This document shows positions 5,208 to 23,800 of a stretch of DNA of 23,935 bases, in pieces. The DNA lies in the IMG/VR virus record IMGVR_UViG_3300021373_000330, positions 1 through 23,935 of that record; one strand, written 5' to 3'. The stretch comes from a virus. How positions within the stretch are numbered: position 1 is the first letter of the stretch; each line of letters starts with the position of its first letter. Under the pieces are notes generated by a model. That model was not told the DNA's origin and did no database searches. It saw only the letters and a program-made list of their open reading frames with translations. The position numbers and the translations under genes were made by a program.

Positions 5208-5579
5208 ATGGCTGTAGCAGAAATGAAGGTAGCCTTTAGTAACTTGCGTGAAACTGAGTCGTATCAGGGTCAGGATACTGGACGGTTTACCTTGACGGGT
5301 ACTCTGGACGATGCAACGGCTGAGATGCTGTCCGCTCAGGGTGTGAAAATAAAAGAGTACGAGAACATGGCACAGCGAAAGTTTGCTAGTAAGTTTCCGG
5401 TGAAGATCATTGACGCCAATGATAATCCCTTTACTGGTGACATACCTCGTGGCTCTACGGTACGCATTAGCTATAAGACAGGCCCAGCGCACCCAGTACA
5501 TGGGACGCCAACCTACCTTAACGCTGTGCGAGTGTTAGAACTTGCTGAAGATGCGTCTGGAATAGATGCAGAACTCTAA
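5208..5579 (+). CDS. Probable phage single-stranded-DNA-binding protein
   Basis: Likely coats single-stranded DNA at the fork and organises the polymerase and helicase, the job of T7 gp2.5. Support comes from its place directly before the primase-helicase, its size (123 residues) and a beta-rich OB-fold-like core (for example GRFTLTGTLDDAT, FPVKIIDAND and GSTVRISYKT). It ends in an acidic tail, LAEDASGIDAEL. Unlike T7 gp2.5 the tail ends in Leu, not Phe. I cannot point to a diagnostic motif, so the call rests on context and architecture. GAGGAG lies about ten bases before the ATG. The stop lies inside the next gene (14-bp overlap). Confidence 0.65.
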   Translation: MAVAEMKVAFSNLRETESYQGQDTGRFTLTGTLDDATAEMLSAQGVKIKEYENMAQRKFASKFPVKIIDANDNPFTGDIPRGSTVRISYKTGPAHPVHGTPTYLNAVRVLELAEDASGIDAEL

Positions 5580-7176
5580 GTTTGTAAAGCACGAAGCCTG
5601 CCCAGTGTGCGGCAGTAGTGATGCGCTGGCCCGTTATAGCGACGGGTCGGCCCACTGCTTCTCCGCTGGGTGTAACCACCGCGAGAGCGCCAATGGTGAA
5701 GTTGTGAGCATTGCAGAAAAGAGACCGCTAGAGTTTAACGGAGCCACTGCCGCTATCCCAGAGCGTCGAATATCACAGGCCACTTGCGCCAAGTTTGGCG
5801 TTACTGTGGAGTTTGACAGGTCAGGGACAATCAGCAGGCATCACTATCCGTACTATGCAACCGACACTAACGAGGTGAAGGGCAGCAAGGTGCGTGTGGT
5901 GCAGAACAAAGACTTTTACGCAACAGGCACATTGCAGGGCGTAGGGCTGTTCGGGCAGAATACCTGCCGTGGCAAGGGTAAATTCATAACGATAACAGAG
6001 GGCGAACTGGACGCGCTGAGTGTGTCTGAGATGTTCGACAATAAATGGGATGTGGTGTCGCTACGCTCTGGCGCATCAGCAGCAGCAAAGGAGATAAAAG
6101 AGCAACTAGAGTGGCTGGAAGGTTACGATCAGGTAGTGGTGTGTTTCGACAGCGACAAGGCTGGACAGACCGCCATTGACGAGATCAAAGACATATTCAG
6201 CCCCAGCAAGCTCAAAATCTGTACGCTTCCTATGAAGGACGCTAGCGAGATGCTAGTAGCTAACAAGGTGCGGGATTTTGTGTCGGCATGGTGGGACGCT
6301 AAATCTTATCAGCCCGATGGTATTATATGTGGTAAGGACACATGGGACGCCATCACTGGCAAGATGAAGGTTAAGTCTATACCGTATCCGTGGCAAGGTC
6401 TTAACGACATGACCAAGGGATTCAGGCCATACGAGCTAGTGACCATCACCAGTGGCTCAGGCATGGGTAAGTCACAGATTGTCAGGGAGCTAGAGTATTA
6501 CCTACTCAACGCCACAGAGGACAACATTGGCATACTTGCGCTTGAGGAGGACGTAGCGCGGACTGCTCTGGGCATCATGTCGGTAGCCGCCGACTGCCCA
6601 TTGCACCTAGAGGAAGACTTAGACTCCGACGCTGCGTTCCCATTCTGGGAGCAAACACTAGGTACTGGACGGTTCTATCTGTTTGACCATTGGGGCAGTA
6701 CAAGCGAGGACAAACTATTGTCTCGCATACGCCACATGGCTAAGGCACTGGACTGTAAGTGGATCATACTCGACCACCTGTCCATCGTAGTGTCAGCACA
6801 GGAGAACGGGGACGAGCGTAAGGCTATCGACGCCATTATGACTAACCTGCGTACACTGGTGCAGGAGCTAGGTGTAGGGCTGTTTCTGGTGTCGCACCTG
6901 AAGCGTACCACAGGTAAGCCACATGAGGACGGAGGCAGGATTAGCCTGAGTGAGTTGCGAGGCTCACAGGCGATAGCGCAACTGTCGGACATGGTGATTG
7001 GCTTGGAGCGTAACCAGCAGGACGAGGACGAGGATAAGCGTAACACAACTACAGTACGTATCCTAAAGAATCGCTACGCTGGTTTGACAGGAGCAGCCTG
7101 CTACTTGAAGTACGACAGGACAACAGGGCGTATGGCTGAAGTAGCAGCACCCAAGGACGTAGACGATGACTTCTAA
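5566..7176 (+). CDS. Bifunctional DNA primase-helicase, T7 gp4-like
   Basis: Unwinds the fork as a ring helicase and makes primers for the lagging strand. All parts of the T7 gp4 plan are present in 536 residues. The zinc motif has C12, C15, C31 and C36. The TOPRIM primase core has ITEGELDA (E145) and CFDSDKAG (D195, D197). The RecA-type helicase has SGSGMGKS (296-303), acidic LEED (326-329), Walker B ILDHLSIVVS (D403) and LVSHLKR (H444). Motif LRGSQAIAQLSD (464-475) follows. The tail, DVDDDF, is acidic and ends in Phe, like the tail T7 gp4 uses to contact its polymerase. It overlaps the SSB gene (14 bp) and the polymerase gene (11 bp). Confidence 0.96.
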   Translation: MQNSKFVKHEACPVCGSSDALARYSDGSAHCFSAGCNHRESANGEVVSIAEKRPLEFNGATAAIPERRISQATCAKFGVTVEFDRSGTISRHHYPYYATDTNEVKGSKVRVVQNKDFYATGTLQGVGLFGQNTCRGKGKFITITEGELDALSVSEMFDNKWDVVSLRSGASAAAKEIKEQLEWLEGYDQVVVCFDSDKAGQTAIDEIKDIFSPSKLKICTLPMKDASEMLVANKVRDFVSAWWDAKSYQPDGIICGKDTWDAITGKMKVKSIPYPWQGLNDMTKGFRPYELVTITSGSGMGKSQIVRELEYYLLNATEDNIGILALEEDVARTALGIMSVAADCPLHLEEDLDSDAAFPFWEQTLGTGRFYLFDHWGSTSEDKLLSRIRHMAKALDCKWIILDHLSIVVSAQENGDERKAIDAIMTNLRTLVQELGVGLFLVSHLKRTTGKPHEDGGRISLSELRGSQAIAQLSDMVIGLERNQQDEDEDKRNTTTVRILKNRYAGLTGAACYLKYDRTTGRMAEVAAPKDVDDDF

Positions 7177-8887
7177 CAGCGAACTGTACCTAGATATTGA
7201 GACTGATGGGCTAAACCCCAGTGTTATCTGGATTGCAGTGACAAAGCAGGGCGGTAAGGTACGTAAGCATTACGATGCTGAGTCGCTAGCAGCTACGCTG
7301 GAAGGCACGTTCCCAGTGGTAGGACAGAACCTATATGGGTTTGACCTTCCTGTACTGGAGCGCCTATGGGGAATCAAGGTAGACCGTGAGCGCGTACAGG
7401 ATACGCTGGTCATGTCACGCCTGAGTAGCCCTAACCGCGACGGAGGACACAGCCTACGCGCATGGGGTGAGCGTCTTGGGTTTTCTAAGGGCGACCATAC
7501 TGATTGGTCATGCTTGTCACCTGAGATGGAAAAGTATTGTGTACGCGATGTTGAAGTAACTGAAAAACTGTACCAGCACCTACTGAGAGAACTGGATGGT
7601 TTTGAGATAGACTCAATAAAACTAGAACATGAAGTGCAGCGGATAACCGCCAGACAGGTCAGGCTAGGCTGGCTACTGGATCTAAAATATGCACACCAAT
7701 TATTAGCTCTGCTAAAGGAAAAAAAATATGAACTGGAAGACAAAGTACAGGACACCTTTCGTCCTCTCCCTACATTTATCAAGGAAGTTACGCCACGGTG
7801 TAAGAAAGATCATACGCTCTCTGCCGTAGGTCTAAAGTTTCTAGGTGAGCAGTGGGGTGACGTTTGTGGCCCGTTTAGTCGCATTGACTTCCCTGAGTTT
7901 AACTTAGGATCACGGCAGCAGATCGGCAGATACTTACAGCATTTTGGATGGAAGCCCACAAAGTTTACAGAGAAGGGACACGCCATTGTAGATGAGTCTG
8001 TACTGTCTAATATCACTGACATACCGGAAGCGCAACTGATAGCGGAGTACCTGATGGTACAGAAGCGTGTAGCACAGATAAAAAGCTGGATAGACGCCGC
8101 TGACGATGATGGTAGAGTACACGGCAGAGTGAACACCAACGGCGCTGTAACAGGCCGTATGACACACTCAGAGCCTAATCTGGCACAGGTGCCTGCCTCC
8201 CGCGCTCCATACGGTAAAGAGTGCAGGTCATGCTGGATTGTACCGGAAGGGTACTCTCTGGTCGGCTTTGATGCCAGTGGACTAGAACTACGCATGTTGG
8301 CGCATTACATGGGAGATAAGGAGTACACCAATGAAATTCTCCACGGAGATATTCACACAGCCAATCAAAGACTTGCAGGACTTGAATCGAGAGATCAGGC
8401 TAAAACTTTCATATATGCCTTCCTATACGGTGCAGGAGATGCAAAACTTGGTACGATTGTCGGGGGAAATGCGCGTACTGGCTCTGCGCTTAGAGCAAGA
8501 TTCCTTAATGGTCTCCCAGCACTTAGGGATCTTACTGAAAGAGTTGCAGCAAAAGCTGGAGGAGGATACCTTAAAGGACTAGACGGAAGGCAGCTACAGG
8601 TGCGTAGCGCACACTCAGCACTGAACACGCTACTACAGGGCGCTGGTGCTATAGTTATGAAGAAAGCTCTGGTTATCCTAGATGAATATGCACAGGGGTA
8701 CAGGCTGGACTATAACTTTGTAGGCAACATCCACGATGAAGTGCAGGCTGAAGTAGCACAGGGTCAGGAAGATAAGTACGGAAGATTAGCAGTGTCTTGC
8801 ATAGAGGCTGCTGGTCTTCATTACAGCCTGAGATGTCCACTAACAGGAGAATACAATGTTGGCAGCAACTGGTCAGAAACCCACTGA
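7166..8887 (+). CDS. polA: Family A DNA polymerase with 3'-5' exonuclease, T7-like, short form
   Basis: Replicative polymerase of the phage. Exonuclease motifs are YLDIETDG (D10, E12), NLYGFD (D60) and YCVRD (Y124, D128), all active-site acids being present. Polymerase motif A is LVGFDASGLE (D369, E374). Motif B is RDQAKTFIYAFLYG (R409, K413, Y417, Y421), and motif C is NIHDEV (H523-D524-E525). Y417 matches T7 Y526 and E. coli position 762. At 573 residues it is about 130 shorter than T7 gp5. About 60 are missing between exonuclease and palm, where T7 has its thioredoxin-binding loop. That suggests another processivity solution. The start overlaps the helicase gene by 11 bp. A strong internal ribosome-binding site and an out-of-frame ORF lie inside (8331-8582). 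Confidence 0.96.
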   Translation: MTSNSELYLDIETDGLNPSVIWIAVTKQGGKVRKHYDAESLAATLEGTFPVVGQNLYGFDLPVLERLWGIKVDRERVQDTLVMSRLSSPNRDGGHSLRAWGERLGFSKGDHTDWSCLSPEMEKYCVRDVEVTEKLYQHLLRELDGFEIDSIKLEHEVQRITARQVRLGWLLDLKYAHQLLALLKEKKYELEDKVQDTFRPLPTFIKEVTPRCKKDHTLSAVGLKFLGEQWGDVCGPFSRIDFPEFNLGSRQQIGRYLQHFGWKPTKFTEKGHAIVDESVLSNITDIPEAQLIAEYLMVQKRVAQIKSWIDAADDDGRVHGRVNTNGAVTGRMTHSEPNLAQVPASRAPYGKECRSCWIVPEGYSLVGFDASGLELRMLAHYMGDKEYTNEILHGDIHTANQRLAGLESRDQAKTFIYAFLYGAGDAKLGTIVGGNARTGSALRARFLNGLPALRDLTERVAAKAGGGYLKGLDGRQLQVRSAHSALNTLLQGAGAIVMKKALVILDEYAQGYRLDYNFVGNIHDEVQAEVAQGQEDKYGRLAVSCIEAAGLHYSLRCPLTGEYNVGSNWSETH

Positions 8888-9194
8888 GACTGACAGTAAC
8901 CGCAAAGGTGACTTAGCAGAATACTACGCAGTAACTTGGCTTTGGGATGAAGGGTACGAAGTGTTTAAGAATGCTGGGTGTTCTGGGCCTATAGATTTAA
9001 TTGCGTATAACTTAGAAACACAGGAAACAATTTTGATAGATGTTAAAACATTTTATAAGGGTTCTAAGGAAGGCACTTATTCACAAACACCTAAACAGCG
9101 GAGCCAACTGCAAAAGGATTTGAACGTTGTCCGTCTCGGTTTCAATCCAATCACACGTAAACTTAGATTTATAGACCATAGAGAAACAAAATGA
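8856..9194 (+). CDS. PD-(D/E)XK nuclease, Holliday-junction-resolvase-like (112 aa)
   Basis: Compact single-domain nuclease. RKGDLAEYYAVTWL (E22), GPIDLIAY (D47) and ILIDVKT (D62, K64) give the E...D...DxK active site with the spacing of Hjc-like and related junction resolvases. The substrate could be branched DNA or simple duplex ends, which the sequence does not decide. AGGAG lies about eight bases before the ATG, and the gene overlaps the polymerase by 32 bp and the next nuclease by 4 bp. Its codons after about 8990 are more A/T-rich than those of the polymerase, which may indicate separate acquisition. Confidence 0.75.
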   Translation: MLAATGQKPTETDSNRKGDLAEYYAVTWLWDEGYEVFKNAGCSGPIDLIAYNLETQETILIDVKTFYKGSKEGTYSQTPKQRSQLQKDLNVVRLGFNPITRKLRFIDHRETK

Positions 9195-10963: not shown

Positions 10964-12833
10964 GACAGGCACTCAAGATTATCTTGGGATTACTATAGAC
11001 TACGAAAGAGAGAAAGACCTAAATGACTTCTCTCTGAATACGCTGAAGGACAGGTACTTCTGGCAAGACGAGACATATGCACAGGAAGCCTTTGCACGCG
11101 CCTCTGTGTACAGTGCTACCTATCACGGTGTTACTGACTTTGACCTAGCACAGCGCCTGTACGACTATGCCAGTAAAAGCTGGTTTATGTTCAGCACACC
11201 AATACTAAGCAATGGAGGAACAACTCGTGGCTTACCTATTAGCTGCTTTCTTAATTTTGTGCCTGATTCCAGAGGTGGTCTATCGTCTCACTATGATGAG
11301 AATATTTGGCTTACTTCCAGCGGAGGTGGGCTTGGTGGTTATTGGGGCGATGTTCGCAGCAACGGTGTATCTACTTCTAATGGGAGTCAATCAACGGGGA
11401 GTATTCCCTTTATGCACGTAGTTGATAGTCAAATGCTGGCTTTCAACCAAGGAGTGACAAGGAGAGGTGCTTATGCGGCGTATATGGACATCAGCCATCC
11501 AGAGATTGAAGAATTTATTGCAATGCGAAAGACTACTGGCGGTGATCTCAATCGTAAGTGCCTTAACCTGCATAACGGTATCGTTTTATCTGATGAGTAC
11601 CTATATGCGGTAGAGCATGACTTACCTTGGCGTCTAATTGACCCTAAGTCAAAGCAAGCAGTCAAAACTATCTCAGCTAGGGACTTGTGGTGGCAGTTAG
11701 TACACACCAGAGCAGAGACAGGTGAGCCGTACATTGTCAATGCAGACCGCTGTAATGAGTACCTACCACAACAACAGAAGGACTTAGGACTTACTGTGCG
11801 ACAGAGTAACTTATGCTCTGAGATTACATTGCCTACAAGTGAGGAACGTACAGCAGTTTGCTGCTTGTCTAGTGTTAATTTAGAATACTTTGATGAGTGG
11901 AAGGAGGAAGAAAACTTTATATCAGACCTAGTTACCATGCTAGACAACACATTGGAGCATTTCATTGACAATGCAGTAGACGAGTATCCACACAAGCCTG
12001 TGGACACACTAGAGGAGTTTATGGGATATGTGGGACAAAATAAAACAGGGTTTGCAAAAGCCGCTTACAGTGCATACAGAGAACGTGCGATTGGCCTTGG
12101 TGCAATGGGCTTTCATAGTTATCTTCAACGTAATGGACTCTCTTTCGAGGGAATGTACGCTGCCAGTTTTAACAACAGAGCCTTTAAGCACATCAAGGAA
12201 AGAGCTACAGAGGCTAGTCGTAGCTTGGCTGGACTTAGGGGTGAAGCTCCTGATATGGCTGGCAGTGGTCTTCGTAACTCACATCTACTTGCTATTGCTC
12301 CTAACGCCAGCAGCAGTATTATATGCGGTGGAACGAGTCCTAGTATTGAGCCAACGAGGGCTAACGTATTTACGCACAAGACTTTGAGTGGCAGCTATCG
12401 TGTAAAGAACAAGTACCTAGAACAGTTACTTGAGAGTAAAGGTATAAACAATGAGAAAACATGGAAGGATATTTCTGCTGCTCAAGGCTCTGTTGCAGGG
12501 CTTACGGCGCTATCTGAAGAAGAAAAGGACACCTTTAAGACCGCCCCTGAGATCAATCAGATATGGGTCATAGAACACGCCTACCAGCGTCAGCCCTATG
12601 TGTGTCAGTCTCAGTCAGTTAATACCTTCTTTGAGCCACCACCTTCCAATGCACCACAGGAGACACATGATGAATACCTAGAGTACGTCAACAACGTACA
12701 CTGGGCTGGTGCAAACAAGTTGAAGTCCATGTATTACTACCGCACCACAGCGGCACGTAATGCAGAGAATGTCAACGTGAAGATACCAAGGATTAACTTG
12801 GAAGATGGGGAGTGCCTAAGCTGTGAAGGATAA
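10953..12833 (+). CDS. nrdA: Class I ribonucleoside-diphosphate reductase, alpha subunit
   Basis: Reduces ribonucleotides to deoxyribonucleotides with the beta subunit made by nrdB. The active site is visible: C98 (in ISCFLNF), N286, C288 and E290 in SNLCSEITL, C303/C304 as partner of C98, and the radical-path tyrosines in SMYYYRTT (594-596). CLSCEG at the end is the redox shuttle. Only about 20 residues precede the core, so the ATP-cone that lets dATP switch the enzyme off is absent. That is common in phage enzymes and would keep synthesis running at high dATP. At 626 residues it is shorter than the 761 of E. coli. Two hydrophobic ORFs lie out of frame inside it. Confidence 0.95.
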   Translation: MQYKTGTQDYLGITIDYEREKDLNDFSLNTLKDRYFWQDETYAQEAFARASVYSATYHGVTDFDLAQRLYDYASKSWFMFSTPILSNGGTTRGLPISCFLNFVPDSRGGLSSHYDENIWLTSSGGGLGGYWGDVRSNGVSTSNGSQSTGSIPFMHVVDSQMLAFNQGVTRRGAYAAYMDISHPEIEEFIAMRKTTGGDLNRKCLNLHNGIVLSDEYLYAVEHDLPWRLIDPKSKQAVKTISARDLWWQLVHTRAETGEPYIVNADRCNEYLPQQQKDLGLTVRQSNLCSEITLPTSEERTAVCCLSSVNLEYFDEWKEEENFISDLVTMLDNTLEHFIDNAVDEYPHKPVDTLEEFMGYVGQNKTGFAKAAYSAYRERAIGLGAMGFHSYLQRNGLSFEGMYAASFNNRAFKHIKERATEASRSLAGLRGEAPDMAGSGLRNSHLLAIAPNASSSIICGGTSPSIEPTRANVFTHKTLSGSYRVKNKYLEQLLESKGINNEKTWKDISAAQGSVAGLTALSEEEKDTFKTAPEINQIWVIEHAYQRQPYVCQSQSVNTFFEPPPSNAPQETHDEYLEYVNNVHWAGANKLKSMYYYRTTAARNAENVNVKIPRINLEDGECLSCEG

Positions 12834-20847: not shown

Positions 20848-23800
20848 CTAGCCTCCTTTAAGGGTGTTTACTTCGGCCTGTAAAGCCGTTACTTGTGCGG
20901 ATAGTTCTTGGACTGCTTTAACTAACGGGATAACAAACGCCGTCTTAGCAATTTGTTGTACATTGTATTGATCTACTGACCAGCCGGTAAAATCAGAAAC
21001 ACCTGCGGTATCTAATGCAGCCTTTACCTCTTGAGCAATGAATCCATGTATACTAGTTTCTGTGTCCATCTGGTTATCGGCAGGATCTTCTTTGTAGAGA
21101 TGCGCTAACTCTGCATCAGTAGAATCAAGTTCGTGACTTGCCTTCCAGTTGTACTTAACTGTTCTTAGGTCATTGATAAAATCAAGGCCAAGGTCAGTGT
21201 TTTGCACGTTTTTCTTCAAACGCTCATCAGAAGACCTGCTCCACTCGTCATTCAAAGCAAAATTGTTGCTCACAACATTACTGGCTTTACCGAAACTAAA
21301 GTAGCTGTTATCGACAGCCGTTATGTTATGACCTATAACAATCTGATTAGCTCCGTTTGACTGGTGGGCGTCACTGCCGTAACCAATAATTACATTATTG
21401 TTCCCTGTTTCTAGCGCATCACCAGCAAGAGCACCGACTATAGTGTTCTGCTGTCCCGTGCTGACCACCAACCCTGCTTGCGAACCGACTGCGGTGTTGT
21501 AAATATTACTCGTTGTGGTGGAGTTTTGTGTCGCAAGCGCGTTGTGGCCCACCGCTACGCTGTTTTGGCCTTGCGTGTCAGCCGTTAATGCTTGATATCC
21601 AATTGCGGTGTTTGATGAAGCTACAGTAATTGCATCCCCAGCGAGTCCCCCAATGAGGGTGTTCTGGACTCCCGTGGTGACTGCGCCACCAGCAGCGTAT
21701 CCGATACCTATGTTGTAGTTAGTGGTCGCGGTGGTGAAATTTTGTTGTCCAAGAGCACCCTGACCTATACCGATAGCTCCACTTCCTAAAGTATCCGAAC
21801 CTACCGCGCCAACACCAACGGCTATATTAAAGTCGGCGTCAGTAAGAGCATCACCAGCTAAACCACCAACGAGGACGTTGTTGACTCCCGTGGTGACTGC
21901 GGCTCCTGCTTCAAACCCTACCGCTGTGTTATAAGAGCTTGTTGCCGTAGTAAAGTTTTGGTTTTGTAAGGCAGCTTTTCCCATCGCAACAGAGCCACTA
22001 CCTAAAGTGTCACTACTTAAAGCGTTATATCCAATAGCTACGTTTTGGTCTGCATCAGTAAGAGCATCACCAGCAAGGCCTCCGATTAGGGTGTTCTGGA
22101 GTCCCGTGGTGACTTGTAGACCCGCATCCACCCCCACTGCTGTATTATAAGTATTGGTAGCAGTAGTGAAGTTCTGAAAATGTAGGGCATAAGGGCCGAC
22201 AGCGACTGACCTGCTACCCAACGTATCTGCACCTAAAGCCTCATAACCTATTGCCACGTTTAGGTCAGCGTCAGTCAAAGCATCACCGGCTTCACCGCCG
22301 ATCAAGGTGTTGAAGGTTCCCGTGGTGACTTCTTGACCAGCGGCATAACCGACAGCGGTATTATAATTGTTACCATCATTGTTTTGTTTTGATAACGTGC
22401 CACTTCCTATAGCAGTTGAAAAGTTTCCTGTGTCTTCATCATTCAGAGCTGCATACCCAACGGCTACGTTGTTATCACCAGTAGTAATCGCCGTACCCGC
22501 CTCATCGCCCACGACCACGTTGTAGTTGCCGCCAGAGGTGATGCTGTTACCTGCGTTGACACCTGCGCGGAAGTTAGAGGTGCCGGAGGTTGATGAGACT
22601 AGGTCGCCTGAGTAAGTTAGCGTTCCTGTAAACGTAGGGCTAGCAATAGGTGCCTTAGCATCTATCTGAGTCTGTATGGCAGACGTTACGCCGTCCACAT
22701 AGTTAAGTTCAGCAGTGGTAGCAGTCACGCCATCTAGGATGTTTAGCTCAGCAGCGGTGCTAGTGACACCATCTAGGATGTTTAGCTCAGCGGCGGTAGA
22801 GGTAACGCCGTCTAGGATATTCAACTCTGCTGCCGTAGACGTAACCGTTGTGCCGTTAATAGATAGCGCATCAGTTTCTAAAGTACCATCAACATCTACA
22901 TCACCAGAGATGTCCAGAGAAGCCACTACAGCCGTTCCTGTGAGCGTAGGAGCAGTCAATGTCTTATTCGTAAGAGTCTGTGAGCCAGTGAGCGTAGCAA
23001 CAGTGCTATCAATAGACAATGTTACTCCAGTACCTGATGCAGCGGAGTCAATACCTGTACCACCAAGGATACCTAAAGACTCTGAGTCAAGGTCAATATC
23101 AATAGATGTAGAACCATCAGTAACATCTAAGTCCTGTGCAGTTACCTGTGAGTCTACATAGGCTTTGATGGACTGCTGAGAAGCAATACCTGTAGCACTG
23201 TTAGATGCCATATTGTCTTCATCAAGAAATGCTTTACCATCTAGTATATTAAGCTCTGCTGCTGTAGACGTAACACCGTCAAGGATGTTAAGTTCAGCAG
23301 TAGTGGACGTTACACCATCAAGTATGTTTAACTCAGCGGCAGTAGACGTTACTCCGTCCAGAATGTTAAGCTCAGCGGCTGTGCTGGTTACTGTAGTACC
23401 GTTAATAGACAGTGCGTCAGTTTCCAACGTACCGTCAACATCTACGTCGCCTGAGATGTCCAAAGAAGCTACTACTGCTGTGCCTGTAAGAGTAGGAGCA
23501 GTAAGTGTCTTATTAGTCAGCGTCTGAGAGCCTGTAAGCGTCGCTACGGTGCTGTCTATTGCAAGGGTTACACTTGTACCTGATGCAGTAGAAGATAGCC
23601 CTGTGCCGCCTAGAATGCCCAGAGACTCACTATCTAAGTCGATGTCAATGCTTGATGAGCCGTCAGTAACATCTAAGTCCTGTGCGGTTACTTGGCTGTC
23701 AACGTATGCTTTGATGGACTGTTGAGTAGCCAGTTTAGTGGCACTATTGGAAGACATATCATCTTCATCTTTAATGCCAGTTACAGTAGCGCCATCGCCT

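Follow-up and report, generated by a model that had tools for sequence, protein, structure and literature searches.

Out-of-frame phage genes that have their own ribosome-binding site are exemplified by lambda Rz1, nested in Rz, and by phiX174 E, nested in D. Genes 4B and 5B of the T7/T3-type phage phiYeO3-12 offer another kind of internal gene, in which replication genes, that of the polymerase among them, have a second start; 4B and 5B are both annotated as in-frame shorter versions. For spanins, a published account is available (PMC6139136). In phage Fc02, overlapping genes were tested and have superinfection-exclusion activity (PMC9936078), and de novo overprinted viral genes mostly encode accessory proteins, according to a review (PMC8227390).

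Here we describe a putative and previously unannotated second gene inside the DNA polymerase gene of a family of marine bacterial viruses, where it bears a strong signature of selection. Like Rz1 in Rz and E in D, it would be a complete gene inside another one, in a shifted frame, with internal initiation and a small product. Unlike in these two pairs, the host gene encodes a replicative DNA polymerase, and the product is predicted to be a soluble hydrophilic helix rather than a lipoprotein, a spanin or a membrane lysis protein. It shares with 4B and 5B of phiYeO3-12 the second start inside a replication gene, but it is out of frame and would yield a different protein; we thus rejected a T7-type in-frame internal start of the 5B kind, since the ORF lies in the +1 frame and not in that of the polymerase. 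As in Fc02, an overlapping gene pair is found in a double-stranded DNA phage, with an accessory function proposed here for one member, although location, host gene and sequence all differ. A further likeness is with the HTVC103P-type pelagiphages and related uncultured marine groups, whose polymerase is related and among which the isolated phages HTVC103P, HTVC104P and HTVC115P carry the same ORF.

An 83-codon ORF lies in the +1 frame of a phage polymerase gene

The window analysed is the entire 23,935-nucleotide stretch of the IMG/VR virus record IMGVR_UViG_3300021373_000330. Its replication block holds a DnaB-type helicase-primase gene (5566-7176), the gene of a family A DNA polymerase (7166-8887, + strand; 573 aa; PF00476, E 4.5e-50) with a 3'-5' exonuclease-like N-terminus, and a ribonucleotide reductase (RNR) large subunit gene. 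A PD-(D/E)XK-like gene, judged by sub-threshold matches, lies at 8856-9194. At 20848-23757 on the - strand, the window encodes a 969-aa fibre-like protein in which repeats of the type TAAELNILDGVTST are numerous. Polymerase phylogeny has been used to place uncultured marine genomes around pelagiphages of the HTVC103P type (PMC8528129), and the similarity of its polymerase suggests that the window belongs near these phages.

The sequence-only reading had proposed an overprinted gene of 83 codons at 8331-8582 (+ strand, +1 relative to the polymerase frame), and the ORF and its signals lie exactly where it placed them. The ATG (8331-8333) is formed by the polymerase codons AAT GAA (8330-8335), the stop codon is at 8580-8582, and the Shine-Dalgarno sequence TAAGGAG (8317-8323, with AAGGAG at 8318-8323), which overlaps the Asp-Lys-Glu codons of the polymerase, is separated from the ATG by a spacer of 7 bases. 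The ORF was also said to cover polymerase motif B, and the motif B/O-helix stretch RDQAKTFIYAFLYG indeed lies within it. Finally, a shift in the codon use of the polymerase frame over the ORF had been noticed, and counts of Leu, Arg and Ala codons show that it is real. Leu codons inside the ORF stretch are CTT (8), CTC (2) and CTA (1), with no CTG, as against 20 CTG, 22 CTA and 3 CTT in the rest of the polymerase; AGA accounts for 5 of 7 Arg codons inside and 7 of 30 outside, and GCA for 7 of 13 Ala codons inside and 11 of 32 outside.

When amino acids were kept fixed and codons were sampled from the usage of the polymerase outside the ORF stretch, 6.3 stops were expected in the +1 frame of this stretch in the window's own gene, and none is seen (P 0.0000, 4000 draws). 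Outside of it, the same polymerase has 43 +1 stops for 44.6 expected.

The frame is kept open in distant relatives

Polymerase relatives were gathered from viral contigs with four queries, and 269 distinct sequences were codon-aligned (266 excluding three distant phage records). Clustering at 92% nucleotide identity led to 105 clusters, of which 90 have the ORF (ORF-plus) and 15, including the three distant records, do not (ORF-minus). At the homologous site, an ATG followed by at least 70 open codons is present in 242 of the 266 distinct polymerases. The ORF-plus clusters reach down to 54-60% nucleotide identity to the window, and in all 90 an open frame of 80-108 codons starts at the homologous ATG. 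In close relatives, where stops in the +1 frame would have spoken against a gene, no internal stop was found, and all sequences with at least 88% nucleotide identity keep both the ATG and the 83-codon length. The position of the stop varies more widely in the group, the longer versions having 88-108 codons and most often 97, which suggests that the C-terminus of the nested protein is loosely constrained.

We compared these counts with a null in which each gene keeps its own amino acids and codon usage. Over the first 83 codons, synonymous resampling predicts 442.5 stops in the 90 ORF-plus clusters, and only 6 are seen, all of them terminators of the 80- and 82-codon versions. Pooled counts of this kind overstate the independent evidence because the 90 clusters are kin, a problem that is partly answered by the test on disjoint pairs given below. 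The G+C content of the ORF-plus loci ranges from 0.30 to 0.49, so that AT-rich Pelagibacter phages are stop-free as well, where some 6 to 9 stops would be expected. In a scan of five frames, the +1 frame has no stop at 8351-8530 (241 expected), and no complete depletion was found in the other frames or in other parts of the polymerase. Stops are also scarce over 8441-8530 in the antisense frame that is in codon register (34 seen, 170 expected), which would follow from the same avoidance of codons of the CTA, TTA and TCA type. Two control genes treated by the same method, the helicase-primase gene, in 96 clusters, and the gene at 9191, in 139, showed no comparable stop-free stretch.

These data bear on the simplest alternative, a chance open frame, in which a conserved motif and biased codons leave the +1 frame open and nothing is made from it. 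The conserved residues around motif B do limit what the +1 frame can hold, and in T3-like phages a +1 ORF of 58 codons occupies the corresponding site without any excess over expectation. However, the deficit of stops persists with amino acids and codon usage held, and the ORF-minus clusters, which have much the same motif, carry stops near the expected rate (63 seen, 78.9 expected). Nor does chance predict the lower synonymous change and the protein-level shifts described below. We therefore regard this explanation as already refuted, barring a codon bias that tracks the presence of the ORF exactly, and its remaining probability as negligible.

The start codon and the ribosome-binding site are conserved

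The polymerase residue that supplies the nested ATG is Asn, His, Asp or Tyr in 75, 12, 2 and 1 of the ORF-plus clusters, respectively. Its codon ends in T in 90/90 (AAT, CAT, GAT or TAT, never NAC), and the codon after it always begins with G; in the rest of these genes NAT accounts for about 54% of the codons of this kind, so that the start codon appears to be conserved beyond the demands of the polymerase, although this comparison is partly circular as the ORF-plus clusters are defined in part by this very ATG. The ribosome-binding site likewise appears to be conserved beyond what the polymerase demands: of 88 clusters, 86 have G as the last base of the Lys or Glu codon that forms it, for 43.8 expected. 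The longest Shine-Dalgarno match has a mean of 5.34 where 4.06 would be expected, with a per-lineage median P of 0.34, which is no more than suggestive since the polymerase residues there already favour a match. In the ORF-minus lineages, most of which have Pro, Ser or Ala at the ribosome-binding codon, the match is no better than expected (2.25 versus 2.07). Thus, the start and the ribosome-binding site put forward by the sequence-only reading have been kept through replacements of the polymerase residues that encode them. In 97% of the ORF-plus clusters, folding is weaker in the start region than it is on average in the gene.

Programmed frameshifting is well known in phages, and both the frame and the direction would fit a +1 slip giving a truncated polymerase that ends in a new tail. 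However, a +1 stop lies upstream of the ATG at a median distance of 7 codons, at 7 codons or less in most ORF-plus clusters and at 1 codon in nine of them, so that any slip would have to take place no more than a few codons away from the ATG. In addition, the features that are conserved are an ATG and a Shine-Dalgarno sequence, and we consider frameshifting highly improbable.

Synonymous change is reduced over the ORF

A nested gene should lower synonymous change in the polymerase over 8331-8582, and it is clearly reduced there. In 37 disjoint pairs of ORF-plus sequences, 16.0% of the codons are synonymously changed inside the ORF and 28.8% outside, with the inside value being lower in 33 of the 37 pairs, whereas in 5 ORF-minus pairs the values are 32.7% inside and 26.6% outside. 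The excess of codon identity at synonymous sites peaks at 8306-8620 (+ strand) in the lineages keeping the ORF and not in the ORF-minus ones; this zone extends beyond 8582 because many relatives have a longer version of the ORF. Even with stop-relevant codons excluded, the best-scoring 83-codon constraint window of the entire gene has the nested ATG as its exact starting point. A second and mild patch of constraint is found at 7496-7630, in the exonuclease part of the polymerase. As a nested ORF it was rejected, since it consists of scattered codons, is also seen in ORF-minus lineages and has no consistent open frame.

The nested ORF encodes a putative helical protein under selection

Third positions of the polymerase codons are second positions of the nested codons, and nearly every silent change in the polymerase therefore alters the nested protein. 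Against a null obtained by stop-free synonymous resampling of the polymerase, the nested proteins are richer in Glu and Lys (19.7% versus 11.0%), poorer in Pro and Gly (3.5% versus 6.3%) and more hydrophilic; the z-scores for composition count related lineages as separate. Pairwise identity between distant lineages is 0.375 for 0.269 in the null. The Glu+Lys and hydropathy shifts are absent from control windows and from the ORF-minus lineages. From residue 35 to 76, hydrophobic columns recur every 3.5 residues, with a heptad power of 5.4 against 1.98 +/- 0.22 in the null. Composition, identity and heptads together argue that the nested protein is under selection at the protein level. The overprinted helical protein with its own ribosome-binding site that had been proposed from one sequence is thus seen to be conserved in about 90 lineages, with a selected composition and a preserved start.

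An AlphaFold2 model built with 88 family members predicts a single helix over residues 3-82 (mean pLDDT 88.7, pTM 0.46); being a single helix with a low pTM, it cannot name a binding partner. Searches in Pfam and PHROGs gave scattered weak matches only, largely of coiled-coil type, PADLOC, searched with the window's own protein, gave no match, and the best PDB hits were coiled coils (E 0.004). Judged by these four resources, the predicted protein resembles no known family, and its function has to be deduced from its shape alone. A small membrane lysis protein or spanin of the Rz1 or sgl type was rejected on composition and predicted shape, as the mean hydropathy of -0.5, the Cys content of 0.7% and the continuous hydrophilic helix speak against a transmembrane stretch or a lipobox.

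Synonymous constraint alone would also fit a structured RNA or DNA element, such as an origin, a promoter or a processing site, with the open frame as a by-product. Such an element does not account for stops that are wholly missing in the +1 frame only, for a constraint that starts at the ribosome-binding site and tracks the ORF, or for a +1 product shifted in Glu+Lys, Pro/Gly and heptads, and the start region is less structured rather than more. This explanation was already disfavoured, and we hold it to be very unlikely. The nested ORF is almost certainly a genuine protein-coding gene, a reading for which the case is stronger than its first description could know.

The ORF is old in the group and apparently lost several times

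No annotated version of the nested ORF was found in the phage records examined, among them those of the Pelagibacter phages HTVC103P and HTVC115P, whose versions have 99-107 codons, and our literature search, with subscription journals mostly outside its scope, found no report of an ORF nested in this polymerase. In a tree of polymerases with outgroups, ORF-plus sequences spread across the entire group and ORF-minus ones are scattered within it. The ORF-plus label changes 9 times on this tree, and at least 7 changes are forced by well-supported branches. The simplest reading would be an early gain followed by several losses; as the rooting is unsure, with outgroups falling inside the drawn tree, we claim no number of losses.

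The nested ORF is missing from the polymerases of contigs L192, L195, L196, L147 and L162. The first four group together with ORF-bearing sequences, and L192, L195 and L196 also have no ribosome-binding codons (Asp-Pro/Ser at that place), providing a natural experiment on loss. For the ORF-minus L054 group, we found no clear ORF-minus donor phage for a loss by recombination.

Outside the group, no ORF open beyond expectation was found in the polymerases of T3-like, Pelagivirus, Roseobacter, Bordetella, Mesorhizobium, Mycobacterium, Pseudomonas and Pseudoalteromonas phages. The 58-codon +1 ORF of the T3-like phages (L324-L328), at 2501, occupies the same polymerase site and has its ATG after GGAG. 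We rejected it as a homologue because it is within chance where tested, and it is likely a coincidence of the shared motif. A free-standing homologue was sought near the polymerases and at loci drawn with a profile of the ORF, and in 80/80 of the latter the ORF lies inside the polymerase in the +1 frame; one profile match outside a mapped polymerase (L074) was set aside since its contig has a partial polymerase. No provirus with this polymerase was found in the bacterial genome contigs searched.

A second nested ORF in the ribonucleotide reductase gene

The RNR large-subunit gene, first examined as a control, has a nested ORF of its own, with 119 codons in the +1 frame (12028-12387, + strand) and a hydrophobic predicted product. 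Its ATG is present in 32/32 clusters with a start column that is always NAT, and it is preceded by a conserved purine-rich GGAG/GGAA-TTT site. One stop, the terminator of a 113-codon version, occurs within the 119 codons, where some 2 to 6 would be expected in each cluster. Synonymous change is 14.2% inside and 24.3% outside (16 disjoint pairs). The RNR genes of HTVC115P, HTVC021P and HTVC142P do not carry the ORF. This case is good but weaker than that of the polymerase, because the RNR clusters are closer kin (at least 73% identity) and other stretches of the gene are also poor in +1 stops. In the 32 clusters, these stretches are 11223-11402 (0 seen, 76 expected), 11493-11582 (3 and 84), 12483-12572 (8 and 75) and 12663-12752 (13 and 58), and they could be further nested ORFs or the result of shared ancestry and local codon preference.

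With both ORFs in one genome, we tentatively suggest that these marine phages may habitually place out-of-frame genes inside replication genes and nucleotide genes, that the start signals may help to fix polymerase residues, and that the products may be new-born proteins made together with replication enzymes. At the start-signal spot, the polymerase residues are Asp-Lys/Glu-Glu-Tyr-Thr-Asn, and ORF-less lineages mostly have Pro, Ser, Ala, Lys and similar residues there.

Proposed function and significance

Taken as a whole, the locus very probably holds a nested gene with internal initiation that encodes a small helical accessory protein, likely a coiled coil. With TAAGGAG as their guide, ribosomes would start internally on the polymerase transcript, with the ATG of position 8331, and follow the +1 frame as far as 8582, so that the nested protein would be made in step with the polymerase. 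Its product would be small (80-108 aa across the family), hydrophilic, nearly all-helical and heptad-patterned, and the helix and the heptads together make a coiled coil acting through a protein partner the most likely form. Translation in the cell, oligomerisation and the binding partner are what we infer from the conserved signals and the predicted shape.

An accessory role is suggested by a gene that is old in the group, confined to it, selected in most lineages and apparently lost several times. Its absence from several lineages indicates that it is not essential everywhere, and fits the pattern of overprinted genes that encode accessory proteins. The target of the protein may be a host factor, or it may be the replication machinery of the phage itself. 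A host factor is a plausible partner that we put forward with reserve. Within the same nested-gene explanation, the protein could instead bind the phage polymerase, helicase-primase or RNR as a regulator of replication. Joint production from the polymerase message and a coiled-coil shape suited to a small regulator speak for it, whereas several lineages keep the polymerase without the ORF, and we find this role possible but rather doubtful. A partner other than a host factor or the phage replisome seems unlikely.

Few bacterial groups in the sea are as abundant as Pelagibacter, and the nested gene is absent from the annotation of the isolates checked, HTVC103P and HTVC115P; gene finders easily discard ORFs that are nested in a large gene. 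The nested proteins would form a new protein family that is open to study in isolated phages with cultured hosts, and the lineages without the ORF serve as internal controls. As the ORF lies on a part that ranks among the most conserved of a replicative polymerase, it makes a good natural case of one DNA stretch carrying two proteins. It is also a warning that the conservation around polymerase motifs in these phages may be due in part to another gene.
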